Of a stretch of 64,000 nucleotides of DNA, positions 1 to 38,572 are shown one piece after another. The first letter of the stretch is position 1, and each line of letters starts with the position of its first letter. This DNA comes from Pelagerythrobacter aerophilus (GTDB lineage: Bacteria; Pseudomonadota; Alphaproteobacteria; Sphingomonadales; Sphingomonadaceae). The notes beneath the pieces were generated by a model, which was not told where the DNA came from, did not search any database, and saw only the letters and a program-made list of their open reading frames with translations. The stretch is taken from NCBI RefSeq assembly GCF_003581645.1, contig NZ_QXFK01000014.1, forward strand, positions 496,001 through 560,000, written 5' to 3'. The translations under genes and the position numbers were made by a program.

Positions 1-589
1 TCCACGACTCCGCCGTCCGCTCGATCGCAACCTCGCCAGCATACGGCACGCACAACGCCCTCGCCTCCTCCGGTGCCGCGTGCTGCCACCGCTCGTAGTC
101 ATCGGGCCGCAGGATCACCGGCATGCGGTCGTGCACCTCCGCCGCAGCCCCGCCGGCGTCGGTCATGATCATCGAATAGCAGTTGCCCCACTCGTCGCTG
201 GCACGCCAGATCCCCGCACAGGCGAAGATCGGCTGATCGGGCAGGCTCATCCATGTGCGGGTCATGGCGCCCTTGGGACCCTCGGCTTCGGCCCATGCGG
301 TGAGCGGGATCAGGCAGCGCCGCTCCTGAAAGCTGTAGCGCCACATGAAGCTGTCGAGCCTGTCGGTGCGCGCGTTGTTCACCGGCCGGGGCTTGAGAGG
401 TTGCCCGGTCCGCTTGCTCTTCTGCGCCAGCGGGAAGCCCCAGACCATCGTTCTCAGCGTGCCATCGGCCACGACAAGACCGGGATAGCCGGGGTAGACC
501 TCCTCTGCCGCGTTGCCGATCGTGCTCTCGACCCGGAAGAGGCGGGCGATCTCGTCGGCAGAACGGGCGGCGCGGTAGAGATTACACAC
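1..589 (-). CDS. SOS response-associated peptidase (SRAP/YedK/HMCES family), 3' end outside the window
   Basis: SRAP proteins form a thiazolidine crosslink with abasic sites in single-stranded DNA and so shield them during replication. The reading frame starts with GTG and continues M-C-N-L-Y, which places the catalytic Cys at residue 2. A good ribosome site (AAGGAG) precedes it. The other active-site residues are present: Asn72 in NNAR, Glu101 after RCLIP, and His153 in EVHDRMPVIL. The segment after RCLIP reads LTAWAEAEG rather than the usual GFYEW, so it is a divergent member. About 196 codons are visible and the gene runs off the left edge; the family is usually about 200-240 residues. The start overlaps the stop of the upstream gene by 8 bases, suggesting co-transcription. 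It may be cargo of the element that ends at the tRNA-Pro scar. Confidence 0.88.
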   Translation of the reverse strand, partial: MCNLYRAARSADEIARLFRVESTIGNAAEEVYPGYPGLVVADGTLRTMVWGFPLAQKSKRTGQPLKPRPVNNARTDRLDSFMWRYSFQERRCLIPLTAWAEAEGPKGAMTRTWMSLPDQPIFACAGIWRASDEWGNCYSMIMTDAGGAAAEVHDRMPVILRPDDYERWQHAAPEEARALCVPYAGEVAIERTAESW

Positions 590-893
590 CCTCGTCTCCT
601 TTATACCGGACCAGCTCCCCGTCCGGCCATACCCAAGTCTGCATAACCTGGTCATAGCGTTGGCCCTTGAGTTCGCGGCCCTCGGTATGGCTGTCCTTGA
701 CGATGTAGCTCAGGTCGAGGTCCCATTTCTCCCGGCCGTAGAGCCGCGCATACTCGGCGAGCACGATCCGGTGTTGTTCCGCCCCGTTGCTGGCCCGATA
801 TAGCGCCCGGAGATAGCGGCCCTTCTCCTCACCGGGTCGATCGGCCGTGAAGGAGGGGTCGGGTAATTCGTTTGGCCAACCAATATCGCGCAT
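582..893 (-). CDS. hypothetical protein, about 103 aa
   Basis: I do not recognise this protein. It is small and charged and begins M-R-D-I-G-W-P-N. It is rich in Tyr, Arg, Asp and Glu, with no signal peptide or membrane segment. The ATG at 893 is preferred because a longer in-frame start at 965 would add an Arg/Ser-rich tail and run to the end of the upstream gene. Its TAA overlaps the GTG of the SRAP gene, so the two are probably translated from one message. It lies within the putative integrated element. Confidence 0.6.
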   Translation of the reverse strand: MRDIGWPNELPDPSFTADRPGEEKGRYLRALYRASNGAEQHRIVLAEYARLYGREKWDLDLSYIVKDSHTEGRELKGQRYDQVMQTWVWPDGELVRYKGDEGV

Positions 894-954
894 CGTCTCG
901 TTCCCGTCATCGAATCGCCCCCGCGCCGATGTAGAACGAATATGGAACAAAGCG

Positions 955-1260
955 CTAGGCCTCACGCTCCCCGGCCAGCACGTCGACCATCCGATTGAAG
1001 AACTCGAGCAGCTCGGCCGGCTCGCTCAGCGGTGCCGAGACATAGGCACCCTCAAGCGCCTTCCGCACGTCATCTTCATCTGCCGCGCGCAGTGCCGCGA
1101 GGACGTCTTTTCCCATGCCCCATTCCTCCAGAACCTCGGATAGCTCGTCGACCGCCCGGACGAGCCGCGACGGGTCCGACAGTCTGCCAAGATCGAGCGC
1201 GTAGGCAAGCTTCGATACTTCCGCGGCGTTGCGGGCGAGGCGTTGGCGCGGAGTGAGCAT
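955..1260 (-). CDS. hypothetical protein, about 101 aa
   Basis: An unrecognised, mostly helical, acidic protein starting M-L-T-P-R-Q-R. Leu, Ala, Glu and Asp dominate and no cysteine is visible; helices with heptad-like leucines run through the middle. The ATG at 1260 shares a base with the stop codon of the 40-residue membrane peptide upstream (TAATG). That supports this start over the longer in-frame start at 1374 and suggests translational coupling. It is probably element cargo. Confidence 0.6.
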   Translation of the reverse strand: MLTPRQRLARNAAEVSKLAYALDLGRLSDPSRLVRAVDELSEVLEEWGMGKDVLAALRAADEDDVRKALEGAYVSAPLSEPAELLEFFNRMVDVLAGEREA

Positions 1261-1382
1261 TAAACGGCGCGGAAAAGCGATACGAGCACGACGGCGAAAG
1301 AAACCGCAACCAACGCGCCGAACACGCCTTGCTCCATGCGGTCCAGGATGCTCGGTCGCTCTTCGTCGCCCCACGGTCTCAT
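1260..1382 (-). CDS. predicted 40-aa single-pass membrane peptide
   Basis: The short frame reads M-R-P-W-G-D-E-E, then a hydrophobic stretch of about 20 residues (roughly 19-37, Val/Ala/Leu/Phe rich) and a short basic tail ending R-A-V. Its TAA overlaps the ATG of the next gene by one base, the arrangement seen across this operon. The acidic N-terminus and single helix fit a small inner-membrane protein. No strong ribosome site is visible upstream, so expression is uncertain. Function unknown. Confidence 0.45.
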   Translation of the reverse strand: MRPWGDEERPSILDRMEQGVFGALVAVSFAVVLVSLFRAV

Positions 1383-1425
1383 CGAGCTATGTTGGCAGGG
1401 TGGCGGGGGATTCGCTAGTCAGCGA

Positions 1426-2307
1426 TCACGCCGCCTCTCCCGCGCACCAAAGGCCGCACTCAGCGTCCATGTCCGGATCGTCATCGAACAAGCCGCCGGC
1501 AAACATGTCGGGCTGGCGCCGCACGTCCTGGATCAGTTCGGCGTAGCTATACTCGGTTACGAACCGTGCACCGCTCGCCTTGTTGGTCTTGCCAGTGATC
1601 TCGGCTTCCTGCTGCGACCACCAATCCAGCGTCCCCGGCCGGGTTCGCTCGACCTCCCACAACTTCGGGCGAGCCTTCAGGAAGCAGGCATCGCAGTTGC
1701 CCTCGAAGGGCAGCAATCCGAGATCGAACTCCTGTCTTGCCCAGAACGCGCGCACATCGCGGTTGGTCACGCCGGCATCCGCCAGTGGCATCACGGTCTT
1801 CCAGCGATCCTTGCCGCTTGCGTTCCTGGCATGGCCGCGCGCGACACGGTGCATCTCGTCCGCGCGGAGGCCCACGACATTGGTCCAGGTCTTGTAACCG
1901 AGCGAGAGCATGAAGTGCTTCAGCGTCTCGATCTTCATGTGCGTGGTGCAGAAGCGAGTGACGCTGTTGGGCAGGTAGCCCTTACGTCTGATCACGGCCG
2001 CGAAGGGCTCACCCGATCGGCTCGCGCTGTTGAACCCGACTTCCTCGAAGCGATCGGCAACGGGAGCCTTCTTGGCGTAGTCGACGAACTCGATCCACCG
2101 CACCCGCACGCCCCACCTGGTCGCGCACTCGTGCACGAAGCGCAGCGTCTCCTCGCGCTCCTTGCCGGTATTGGCGAAGCAGACATGCACGTCGTCCGGC
2201 AGTTTGCCGTCGTGCGCGTCGAGAATGTGCCAGAGCATGTAGCCGCTCGTCCGGCCGCCCGAAAACGAGATCAGCGCCGGGCCTTCGATGCGATAGGGGT
2301 TCGTCAT
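1426..2307 (-). CDS. phage-type phosphoadenosine phosphosulfate reductase-like protein (PP-loop family)
   Basis: The protein starts near an S-F-S-G-G-R-T-S PP-loop, the ATP-pyrophosphatase signature shared by PAPS reductases, DndC and related thiolation enzymes. Further cysteines lie in R-F-C-T-T-H-M-K-I and G-N-C-D-A-C, positions where this superfamily carries redox or iron-sulfur ligands. Length is 293 aa from the ATG at 2307; a GTG at 2319 in the same frame is an alternative. No sulfate-assimilation genes lie nearby, and it sits beside a tRNA integration scar. A role in phage or island DNA or RNA modification is therefore as likely as assimilatory sulfate reduction. Substrate unknown. Confidence 0.75.
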   Translation of the reverse strand: MTNPYRIEGPALISFSGGRTSGYMLWHILDAHDGKLPDDVHVCFANTGKEREETLRFVHECATRWGVRVRWIEFVDYAKKAPVADRFEEVGFNSASRSGEPFAAVIRRKGYLPNSVTRFCTTHMKIETLKHFMLSLGYKTWTNVVGLRADEMHRVARGHARNASGKDRWKTVMPLADAGVTNRDVRAFWARQEFDLGLLPFEGNCDACFLKARPKLWEVERTRPGTLDWWSQQEAEITGKTNKASGARFVTEYSYAELIQDVRRQPDMFAGGLFDDDPDMDAECGLWCAGEAA

Positions 2308-2467
2308 GGCGACACCCACCCCGCACGCCCAACCTCACCATTAAGACAGGGGTCGAAGGTCCGCAGCGAACCTATTTCCGGAACGTTGGCGGAACATGCG
2401 CCATCATATGCAGACGGCACACACCGAAGATCGGCAGAAAACCGCCATATGCGACGAGGGGAAGCGT

Positions 2468-2513
2468 CTTCGGGAGGCAGGGGCCGGAGGTTCGAATCCT
2501 CTCTCCCCGACCA
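2468..2513 (+). other. 3' half of tRNA-Pro(CGG): attachment-site (att) remnant
   Basis: The sequence runs from a proline-type anticodon loop (TTCGGGA at 2469-2475) through anticodon-stem 3' side GGCAG, variable loop GGGCC, T-stem and loop GGAGG-TTCGAAT-CCTCT, acceptor 3' side CTCCCCG, discriminator A and encoded CCA. Upstream bases do not complete the anticodon stem beyond two or three pairs, and no D-arm or acceptor 5' side (CGGGGAG) is present. A 3' tRNA fragment cut at the anticodon loop is what tyrosine-integrase elements leave at one end. The intact tRNA and the integrase gene should lie to the left of the window. Confidence 0.8.
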
Positions 2514-2562: not shown

Positions 2563-2591
2563 CCCAAGTGCAAGCGCGGGAGGAGATCATG

Positions 2592-3065
2592 ATGACCACC
2601 CCCGCCATCCTCTTCGTCTGTCTCGGCAACATCTGCCGCTCTCCGTTAGCCGAGGCGGCGTTTCGCGAGGCAGCGGCGCGCGCCGGCCTTGACTCTACGG
2701 CCGACAGCGCCGGGACCGCCGACTACCACGTCGGCAAGCCGCCCGATCCACGCAGCATCGCAACGGCGGCGCGGCACGGGATCGACATCACGCACTATCG
2801 CGGACGGCAGCTGACAGCGGCGGATTTCGATCGCTTCGACTGGATCGTCGGTATGGACCGATCGAACATGCGCAATATCGAACACCTCCGGCCGGCAAAC
2901 AGCAGGGCGAAAGTGACCATGCTGATGGACCTCGTGCCCGGCCGCGAAGGAGCCGAGGTCGCTGATCCATGGTATGGCGGGGAGGACAATTTCGCCTACA
3001 CCTGGGAAGACGTCAGCCGCGGCGCAGAAGCGCTCGTCGCGCTGTTGCGCCAGGGCGGGCACTAG
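2592..3065 (+). CDS. low molecular weight protein-tyrosine-phosphatase
   Basis: A cytoplasmic cysteine phosphatase acting on phosphotyrosine or related small substrates. The N-terminal P-loop C-L-G-N-I-C-R-S matches the C-x5-R-S signature, and the general acid is in the late V-A-D-P-W-Y motif. Length is 157 aa, normal for the family. Two adjacent ATGs lie at 2589 and 2592; the second is better spaced from AGGAG at 2581. The gene converges on recG with a 4-base overlap. No kinase or polysaccharide genes are adjacent, so its physiological substrate cannot be guessed. Confidence 0.92.
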   Translation: MTTPAILFVCLGNICRSPLAEAAFREAAARAGLDSTADSAGTADYHVGKPPDPRSIATAARHGIDITHYRGRQLTAADFDRFDWIVGMDRSNMRNIEHLRPANSRAKVTMLMDLVPGREGAEVADPWYGGEDNFAYTWEDVSRGAEALVALLRQGGH

Positions 3066-5122
3066 CCCCCGCGCAGCAGTTGCACGCCCCAGTCGCGTTC
3101 GAACAGGTAGAGCAGCACGCGGGCTGCGGCTCCGCGTTCGCCTTCGAGCCCGCCATCACGCTCCATCAGCAGCCGCGCGTCGTCGTGCGCGAGTGGGAGG
3201 AGGCGCTGGATCTGCTCGAGGGTGGCAACGCGGAACGGCGTGTCGCCCGACTGGCGCGTGCCGAGCAGTTCGCCGCCGCCGCGCAGGCGCAGGTCTTCCT
3301 CGGCGAGACGGAAGCCGTCCTGCGTTTCGCGCATCAGAGCGAGGCGTTCGCGCCCCGTTTCCGACAGGGCGTCTCCGCGCAGGAGCAGGCAGGTCGACTT
3401 CTCGCTGCCCCGCCCAACGCGCCCACGCAACTGATGGAGCTGTGCGAGGCCGAAGCGCTCGGCCTGTTCGATCACCATCAGGGTCGCCGCCGGCACGTCG
3501 ACGCCGACTTCGATCACCGTTGTCGCAACCAGCAGCTTCGCCTCACCGCGCGCGAATCGCTCCATCGCGGCATCCTTCAGTTCCGGCTTGAGCTGCCCGT
3601 GGACCAGCACGACCGTTTCGCCGAAACGTTCGCGCAGGGCCGCATAGCGCGCCTCGGCAGCGGCGATGTCCTCGCTCTCGTGTTCGCGAACCATCGGGCA
3701 GACCCAATAGGCCTGCTGTCCTCCCGCGATGTGGCGTCCGACCGCCTCAATCACATCCTGCACCCGCTCCTGCGCGACCACGCGGGTGTCGATCGCCTGG
3801 CGCCCGGGGGGCATCTCGTCGAGGCGGCTGACGTCCATCTCGCCGTACTGCGCCAGAGTGAGCGTGCGCGGGATCGGCGTCGCGGTCATCGCCAGCGTAT
3901 GCGGCGTGCGGCGCCCCTTGCCCGCAAGTTGAAGCCGCTGCGCGACGCCGAAGCGGTGCTGCTCGTCGATCACCACCAGCGCGAGGTCGCGATAGGAAAC
4001 GCTCTCCTGAAAGATGGCATGGGTACCGACGACGATATCGATACTGCCGTCCATCAGGCCCATCAGGATCGATTCGCGGGCCTTGCCCTTGTCGCGCCCC
4101 GTCAGCAGCGCGATCTCGACTCCGGTCGGCCGCGCCATCGCCCGCAGCGTCTCGAAATGCTGGCGCGCGAGGATCTCTGTCGGGGCAAGCAGGGCGGCCT
4201 GGCTGCCTGCTTCCACGGCGATCAGCATGGCCTCGAGCGCGACCACCGTCTTGCCCGCGCCAACGTCGCCCTGCAGCAGCCGCAGCATCGGCGCTTCCTG
4301 CGCCAGATCGCCTTCGATCTCGCTAATCGAGCGCTTCTGTGCGCCGGTAAGCGGGAACGGCAGTTGCAACTTGGCCCGCAGCCCGCCGTCACCCTGTAGC
4401 GGCTGCCCGCGTCGGCGGCGATTGTCCGCCCGCACCAGCATCAGCGCCAGGCTGTTGGCGAGCAGTTCGTCGTAGGCAAGGCGATCGCGGGCGGACGTGT
4501 GCTCTCCCGCATGAGCGAGCTTCAGGGCATCTGCCCAGGCAGGCCATTTCTGCCGCCCGAACTGCCCCGGCTCGATCCATTGCGGGAGCTCGGGCAGCCG
4601 CGCAAGCGCCTGCTCGACCAGGCTGGCAACCTTCGGCTGGGTCAGCCCTTCGGACAGCGCGTAAACCGGCTCGCAGAGCTGGCCCAGCGCATCGCCGCCC
4701 TCTTCCGACACGTGGTCCGGGTGGACGATCTGGAGCATGTCCCCGTAGCGGTCGAGGCGGCCGGCAACCCAGCGCTTCTCGCCCACCGGAAGCTGCTTCT
4801 TCGCGGTGTAGGACGCGCGGCCGAAATAGGTCAGCGCGCAGACGTTGCCGACCGCATCCTGCGCGAGCACGCGGTAGGGGCCGCGGCCGCTCCGCGGGGC
4901 GCGATGTTCGGTCGGCGTGAGCGCAACCACGATCTGCTCGCCCTCGCTCGCGGCATCGAGGTTCTCGACCGGGCGGCGCGTGACGAAGCGTTCCGGCAGG
5001 TGATAGGTCACGTCCTTCACCCGCACGAGGCCGAGCTTGTCGAGCGGCTTCTGCAGCTTGGGCCCGACACCGTCGAGCGTCGCGGTCTCGGCGAACAGCG
5101 GGTTGAGGATATCGGGGCGCAT
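3062..5122 (-). CDS. recG: ATP-dependent DNA helicase RecG
   Basis: RecG remodels stalled replication forks and Holliday junctions. At 686 aa it is full length. The N-terminal wedge/OB region is followed by the superfamily-2 helicase motifs: Walker A G-D-V-G-A-G-K-T, DExH box [18 protein letters not shown], and late R-G-R-V-G-R-G. It is transcribed away from sdhE and mfd, a recG-sdhE-mfd neighbourhood common in alphaproteobacteria. Start M-R-P-D-I-L-N-P fits family N-termini. Confidence 0.97.
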   Translation of the reverse strand: MRPDILNPLFAETATLDGVGPKLQKPLDKLGLVRVKDVTYHLPERFVTRRPVENLDAASEGEQIVVALTPTEHRAPRSGRGPYRVLAQDAVGNVCALTYFGRASYTAKKQLPVGEKRWVAGRLDRYGDMLQIVHPDHVSEEGGDALGQLCEPVYALSEGLTQPKVASLVEQALARLPELPQWIEPGQFGRQKWPAWADALKLAHAGEHTSARDRLAYDELLANSLALMLVRADNRRRRGQPLQGDGGLRAKLQLPFPLTGAQKRSISEIEGDLAQEAPMLRLLQGDVGAGKTVVALEAMLIAVEAGSQAALLAPTEILARQHFETLRAMARPTGVEIALLTGRDKGKARESILMGLMDGSIDIVVGTHAIFQESVSYRDLALVVIDEQHRFGVAQRLQLAGKGRRTPHTLAMTATPIPRTLTLAQYGEMDVSRLDEMPPGRQAIDTRVVAQERVQDVIEAVGRHIAGGQQAYWVCPMVREHESEDIAAAEARYAALRERFGETVVLVHGQLKPELKDAAMERFARGEAKLLVATTVIEVGVDVPAATLMVIEQAERFGLAQLHQLRGRVGRGSEKSTCLLLRGDALSETGRERLALMRETQDGFRLAEEDLRLRGGGELLGTRQSGDTPFRVATLEQIQRLLPLAHDDARLLMERDGGLEGERGAAARVLLYLFERDWGVQLLRGG

Positions 5123-37590: not shown

Positions 37591-38469
37591 CTAGTCCGGG
37601 CGGCGGCGAACGGCAAGAGGATGCCGTTCGTTGACCAGCGCAACCAGCCGCGCGCTGTCGACGTGAGTATAGATCTGCGTGGTTGCGATATCCGCGTGGC
37701 CGAGCAGGGTCTGGAGCACACGCAAGTCCGCACCGCCCTCCAACAGATGCGTGGCAAAGGCATGGCGTAGTACGTGCGGGCTGACCTTTTCCACCGCCAG
37801 CCCGGCCCGGGTGGCGAGCGCCTTCAAAAGCTGGAAAAGACGCACGCGGGTCAGGTGCTTGCCGCCGCGCGAGGGGAAGAGGTGTTTCGACCCCTCCGGC
37901 CGCAGCTGCAGCCACCGCGACAGCGCCGCGCCCGCGCGGCCGCTGACCGGCACCATGCGGGCCTGTCCGCCCTTGCCGGTCACCGTCAGGAACGGCGCGT
38001 CCCGCGGGACGGCCGAGAGCGGCAGCGAAACAAGTTCGGTCGCACGCAGACCCGAGCCGTAGAGGAGTTCCAGGAGCGTCAAGAGCCGCACTGCGTGCGG
38101 ATGGTCGCCCTGCGCCTCCTCCTCCGCACGAACGAAAAGCGCCTCGACCTCGCCGTGCGAGAGAATCTTCGGCAGCGGACGCCGCGCTGCAGGCCGAGGC
38201 AGTGCGGTCGACGGGTCGTCGCCGCGCTGTCCTTCGTCGACCAGGAAACCGTAGAACTGCCGTAGTGCTGAGGATTTGCGCGCCACGCTCGATGGCGCGA
38301 GCGTCGCCCAGACCTGCCCGAGGCGGGCCAGCTCGTCTCGTCCCGCGCGTTCCAGGGAACCGATCGCTTCCTCCGCCCCTTCGAGATCCCGCCGATACGC
38401 AGCGAGCGTGTTCGCCGCCGCGCCGCGTTCGGCGGCGAGCATGGCGAGAAAATCCTCGATTGCGGACAC
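37591..38469 (-). CDS. xerD: tyrosine recombinase XerD-like (chromosome dimer resolution)
   Basis: A 292-aa site-specific recombinase of the XerC/D type. The N-terminal SAM-like domain is followed by catalytic residues: Arg in G-S-G-L-R-A-T-E, H-V-L-R-H-A-F-A-T-H, L-G-H-A-D-I, and nucleophile Tyr in Q-I-Y-T-H-V. The GTG start at 38469 gives the usual length; the frame to 38562 adds an atypical tail. Position beside accA and aroK matches XerD in related genomes as I recall; XerC cannot be excluded from sequence alone. Confidence 0.88.
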   Translation of the reverse strand: MSAIEDFLAMLAAERGAAANTLAAYRRDLEGAEEAIGSLERAGRDELARLGQVWATLAPSSVARKSSALRQFYGFLVDEGQRGDDPSTALPRPAARRPLPKILSHGEVEALFVRAEEEAQGDHPHAVRLLTLLELLYGSGLRATELVSLPLSAVPRDAPFLTVTGKGGQARMVPVSGRAGAALSRWLQLRPEGSKHLFPSRGGKHLTRVRLFQLLKALATRAGLAVEKVSPHVLRHAFATHLLEGGADLRVLQTLLGHADIATTQIYTHVDSARLVALVNERHPLAVRRRPD

Positions 38470-38572
38470 TAGTTGCCTGCCCGCTCGTCGGAGGAGTTCG
38501 AAGGACGGATGCGGAGCCGGAGCATGAATGGCATTCTGGCGCACGCCCGGCCCGTCCCGCAAGCGGAAGGGA

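Follow-up and report, generated by a model that had tools for sequence, protein, structure and literature searches.

Insertion into tRNA-Pro(CGG) is already known from Rhizobium phage 16-3 and from the Sinorhizobium prophage Phi3LM21, according to the available text of PMC5537653. The annotated attP of phage 16-3 also carries a tRNA 3' half, as read from its bases, with the integrase gene adjoining. It differs from the present system in its integrase, which is 24.6% identical, and in its 260-bp attP, where the best match to the arm repeat described below scores 8-9 of 15, the control level, so that it is without these arms. Phi3LM21 lies in tRNA-Pro(CGG) with a 57-nt repeat and a reconstituted tRNA gene (PMC5537653, available text), and we liken it to our case by description, not by sequence. 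In Islander-type tDNA islands of the anticodon-centred class, an intact tRNA gene and a displaced 3' fragment mark the two ends (PMC4383910, available text); compared with these, the present case adds attP-like sites in relatives and conserved arm repeats.

The window analysed here is the whole 64,000-nucleotide stretch C1:496001-560000, and its left end lies inside an integrated element. What was observed comprises both ends of this element, its integrase gene, its phage genes, the uninterrupted site in related genomes and, in related viral contigs, a form that resembles attP. We read the locus, with a probability of about 0.97, as a temperate tailed phage that used its own tyrosine integrase to enter the chromosome of a Pelagerythrobacter-like bacterium at the tRNA-Pro(CGG) gene. 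The prophage is already in IMG/VR with inexact ends, and the arm architecture is the only part of the system without a description in the literature searched; no description of the prophage or of the arm repeat was found there, the letters of the repeat not being among the search terms. The features are collected in Table 1.

Table 1. Features of the prophage, its ends and the adjoining host genes (window positions unless given as C1).
Feature	Position	Strand	Remark
Intact tRNA-Pro(CGG), 77 bases	C1:450421-450497	same orientation as fragment	left copy of repeat inside
Prophage, 48,016 bp	C1:450498 to C1:498513		window 1..2465 = right end
Tyrosine integrase ORF, 364 aa	C1:450505-451599	-	ends 7 bp past intact tRNA
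Partner arm repeat	C1:450529-450555		31 bp after attL, inside integrase ORF end
SRAP-domain (SOS-response-associated peptidase) gene	1..589 (C1:495990-496589)	-	prophage cargo; last 11 bases outside window
Small prophage ORF, 103 aa	582..893	-	no Pfam match
Small prophage ORF, 101 aa	955..1260	-	no Pfam match
PAPS-reductase-like gene	1426..2319	-	PHROG 424, annotated phage auxiliary gene; last gene called before attR
Left arm repeat of att site	2346..2372	+	93 bp before attR core
attR core: displaced tRNA-Pro(CGG) 3' half	2466..2513 (C1:498466-498513)	+	48 bp identical to intact gene
Host low-molecular-weight protein tyrosine phosphatase gene	2589..3065	+	first host gene after attR
Host gene taken to be recG	3062..5122	-	protein used as query for recG loci

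Two copies of the tRNA 3' half and the empty site

The initial annotation had reported a 3' half of tRNA-Pro(CGG) at 2468-2513. Its identity and place stood and its extent did not, the perfect match being two bases longer (2466-2513). The fragment corresponds to positions 30-77 of the tRNA, from three bases inside the 5' strand of the anticodon stem to the encoded CCA; the letters bore out that D-arm and 5' acceptor strand are absent from this interval, and no tRNA was called there by ARAGORN or by Rfam at gathering score. A 32-bp part of the fragment, searched with up to 3 mismatches, matched once in the window and never in 100 shuffles. Searched in the same way, it matched twice in the genome (3.65-Mb assembly, 19 contigs, 4.71% estimated contamination), at attR and at an intact tRNA-Pro(CGG). 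This intact gene was found to the left of the window in the orientation of the fragment, as had been predicted, and the tyrosine integrase ORF expected on that side lies directly beside it. The leftward search recovered a perfect 48-bp copy of the fragment (C1:450450-450497 versus C1:498466-498513), so the objection that no repeat exists to the left fails. The copies are direct repeats 48,016 bp apart in the same orientation, and the adjacent base differs on either side.

Integration would start from a phage attP that carries a copy of the tRNA 3' half. The integrase would recombine the two sites inside the core that they share, most likely at the anticodon loop. The 5' half from the host and the 3' half brought by the phage would then form the intact gene at attL; the host's own 3' half would be displaced to the far end and become the attR fragment at 2466-2513. 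The structures before and after this step were observed, and we infer the step itself, from the anatomy of the locus and the Islander principle (PMC4383910, available text), and the exact bases of crossover.

The host locus was compared with that of relatives. The phosphatase gene was present in 48 of 59 genomes searched, and 30 loci were taken (our own genome included in both counts), 6 of them from other genomes of the genus. In four of these six (G001, G004, G005 and G006) the phosphatase gene is immediately preceded by an intact tRNA-Pro(CGG), thyA protein matches lie on the far side, and the artificially joined host flanks align through the junction without a break, over about 2.9 kb and at 80.6-90.9%. 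The flanks are contiguous through an intact tRNA-Pro in these four relatives, so that the suggested comparison with genomes lacking the insert reveals the empty site directly; in G004, the first 55 bases after the CCA are those that follow attR here. In the two others (G002, locus L021, and G003, locus L025) tRNA-Pro and the phosphatase gene are separated by about 2.2-2.4 kb of other sequence; no further tRNA core match was found within that stretch, and other core matches, at 2 mismatches, occur elsewhere in these genomes. Gene order is thus not universal, and the stretch after the tRNA varies even without the prophage.

A wider set was drawn with the gene that we take to be recG, as the initial annotation named it. 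It consists of the best 80 named loci of 578 recG relatives, several of them on short contigs; among these 80, Pelagerythrobacter rhizovicinus has the closest RecG (96%). The target tRNA gene was seen in 42 of the best 80 loci and adjoins thyA, at no more than 400 bp, in 39 of the 42; the phosphatase gene is also present in 27 of the 42, 40 to 8,034 bp after the tRNA (measured to the start of the protein match), and in four named relatives at 40-89 bp. In relatives the phosphatase gene comes after the tRNA gene; the insertion puts 48 kb between the two, which may alter expression of the phosphatase gene. All 36 sites with the tRNA 3'-half pattern in the best 80 loci have a D-arm, so there is no partial tRNA copy among them. 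The SRAP, PAPS-reductase-like and integrase proteins matched none of the 80 (E 1e-8, in the DNA at hand, several contigs being short), and the objection that genes 1-2307 might be syntenic with recG therefore fails as well.

Integrase relatives, attP-like sites and arm repeats

Integrases were surveyed in 298 genomes of the family (E <= 1e-30, at most the 6 best candidates scored per genome). A related integrase was present in 21 genomes, our own included, and 21 matches remained without our own copy. All six integrases at 54-60% identity lie beside tRNA-Pro(CGG), the G030 copy reading with two stops. Among the 15 at 34-39%, 8 are near tRNA-Val, Ala, His or Thr and 7 have no tRNA within the locus. 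The six same-genus genomes gave no related integrase or capsid at E <= 1e-30, an absence that for the integrase is not exhaustive since the best 6 candidates per genome were scored. The capsid was found in 9 of the 298 genomes, our own included, at the same threshold. G272 contains a sister prophage bounded by the same two ends at a distance of 45.7 kb; the SRAP and PAPS-reductase-like proteins had no match in the 60 kb around it (E 1e-8). In another genome (G102:C1:135234-136181) a prophage-like region has a capsid 83% identical to ours and a best integrase match of 29%, a sign of module exchange.

IMG/VR provided 17 integrase loci, of which one is the present prophage and another (L212) is a fragment at 44%, truncated where its contig ends. 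Four of the other 15 lie at an intact tRNA-Pro(CGG) and eight at the 3' half alone (about 600 bp away in L201), while in the remaining three the contig stops no more than 12 bp from the integrase match, so that any site would lie beyond it. Integrases of at least 54% identity are thus associated with tRNA-Pro(CGG) or its 3' half in 6/6 genomes and 12/12 testable viral contigs, two sets that may overlap. The eight loci with a half tRNA are without its 5' half and have an arm repeat on either side, and so resemble the attP of unintegrated phages. They become identical to the tRNA from position 30, 32 or 33 onward, at the anticodon loop, which would place the crossover there or 3' of it.

The arm repeat is about 27 bp long and has the form ACAGGGG-N4-AGG-N8-GAACC. 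In the eight attP-like relatives the left arm always stands 93-94 bp before the core, and 14 of the 16 arms score 13-15 of 15, the other two 11, scores that are not blind because the pattern was written after viewing an alignment of 9 attP sites. Among control segments of the same loci, 7 of 2,000 reached 13 and none reached 14. In ten further relatives the right arm alone was accessible: five reach 13-15 of 15 and one reaches 12, and the remaining four (L155, L157, L158 and L159) have 10, which is the control level; the arms of these four are at the expected place, and the spacer of their inverted repeat is shorter. The offsets of the right arms gather near 29, 40, 62 and 83 bp. When the 10 distinct offsets were compared with uniform draws, 35 of 20,000 reached the value observed at 10.5 bp, and 28 of 3,000 did when periods were scanned; the test took 19 right-arm offsets, the four weak ones included, with a range chosen after the data were seen and relatedness ignored. 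L156 yielded a second tRNA-like site, with a score of 8, which was excluded from the test. The offsets are suggestive of steps compatible with about one helical turn.

Could the arm repeats instead be regulatory sites, for example repressor operators, outside the recombination system? The repeat is partly an inverted one (AGGTTC-N4/5-GAACCT in several copies), as dimeric regulators bind. We consider this unlikely, since one repeat stands on each side of the core in 8/8 attP-like relatives, with the left one at its constant distance, and since in our own genome, with up to 1 mismatch, the pattern occurs at the two prophage ends only, both times without mismatch (the reversed control pattern gave 1 match). 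Moreover, a stricter form of the pattern has a single exact match in the 298 genomes: it lies in G123, where a tRNA-Pro 3' half follows at 94 bp and the related integrase is about 43 kb away. Our own arms and the five remaining genomes that have a close integrase gave no match to this form. Judged from position and pattern, the arm repeats probably bind the integrase or its partner. We further propose, tentatively and at somewhat less than even odds, that this integrase lineage is dedicated to tRNA-Pro(CGG) in the host family and in related viral contigs and that it uses a distinct, simple attP. There, one composite site of about 27 bp (ACAGGGG, then the partial inverted repeat AGGTTC-N-GAACC) would stand on each side of the tRNA half, the left one fixed at 93-94 bp and the right one shifting by about one helical turn. 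This lineage of integrases, together with the conserved attP, is a potential tool for site-specific insertion in these bacteria.

Gene content of the prophage and its surroundings

A simple codon-model caller gave 73 ORFs between the prophage ends, of which 40 were scanned against PHROGs. PHROG matches were obtained for 33 of the 40 (6, 8, 9 and 10 per batch of 10), two of them weak (E about 2e-4 and 7e-4); 13 of the 40 have either no match (7) or a match to a family of unknown function only (6, the SRAP gene included). The integrase itself matches Pfam Phage_integrase (5.1e-16) and the PHROG integrase family (4.8e-46). It is followed by a RecT-like annealing protein, an exonuclease, a weak repressor-like match and a DNA methyltransferase, then by a primase, an AAA ATPase of primase/helicase type, the small and large terminase subunits and the portal. 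Head morphogenesis protein, head protease, major capsid, tail proteins and tape measure come next, and then tail fibre, a GDSL lipase-like protein and endolysin. Terminase, portal, capsid, tape measure and lysis genes are all present. Judged from these assignments, the gene order is that of a tailed temperate phage and the phage genome between the repeat copies appears complete. The prophage may still be able to excise.

These genes bear on the nature of the element, which the initial annotation had left as a phage or a genomic island: integration stood, and the undefined island is refined to a 48-kb tailed prophage. A non-phage genomic island or an integrative conjugative element could have left the same scar, which by itself fits any tyrosine-integrase element and is generic according to the available text of PMC4383910; with terminase, portal, capsid, tape measure, tail and endolysin genes in the interval, this is very improbable. 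An origin of the half by decay of a duplicated tRNA gene, or by chance similarity with no element linked to it, is less probable still: partial tRNA genes in prokaryotes are often miscalled (PMC9897764, available text), but 48 perfect bases, a linked integrase, the empty site of relatives and arm repeats at both ends argue against it.

The integrated tailed phage is, as far as compared, the same prophage as IMGVR_UViG_2837529137_000001, which is 100% identical over three compared pieces (5.9, 7.3 and 6.6 kb, of which the 7.3-kb piece contains the 5.9-kb one) and whose length fits the span. That record covers C1:447966-498307, takes in the host thyA and stops 206 bp before the attR end, so the ends of a catalogued but mis-bounded prophage are now fixed to the base. 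The prediction that the left end of the window is element cargo was confirmed for 1-2465, inside the prophage ends. The SRAP and PAPS-reductase-like genes, the last named genes ahead of attR, are phage cargo and not host genes linked to recG. A linked module of the two was considered and rejected: both occur in only 2 of 21 viral loci with either protein (14 and 7 loci, flanks up to 5 kb, close relatives only), and as both loci are the same prophage the pair was not seen as a conserved unit at that sensitivity. No solved structure was matched by sequence for the PAPS-reductase-like protein (E <= 0.001) or for the large terminase (E <= 0.01).

The large terminase gene (C1:469216-471330, or L018:9216-11330), outside the window, has an apparent in-frame intein of about 262 aa. 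The terminase profiles are interrupted, and an NCBIfam model that contains an intein aligns with residues 120-382 (E 2.5e-07, with a score far under the cut-off); Pfam found no intein domain in the terminase. The insert starts with C and ends with HN before C, which we take to be intein motifs.

Further into the window, the integrase-like gene at 37591-38562 might have belonged to another element, but it scores best as a XerC/XerD-type tyrosine recombinase and was therefore rejected as an island integrase. Finally, an inverted repeat at 2514-2561 (GTTTTCCG ... CGGAAAAC), seen by eye, directly follows the tRNA end, has no T run and is shared with the empty site of G004.
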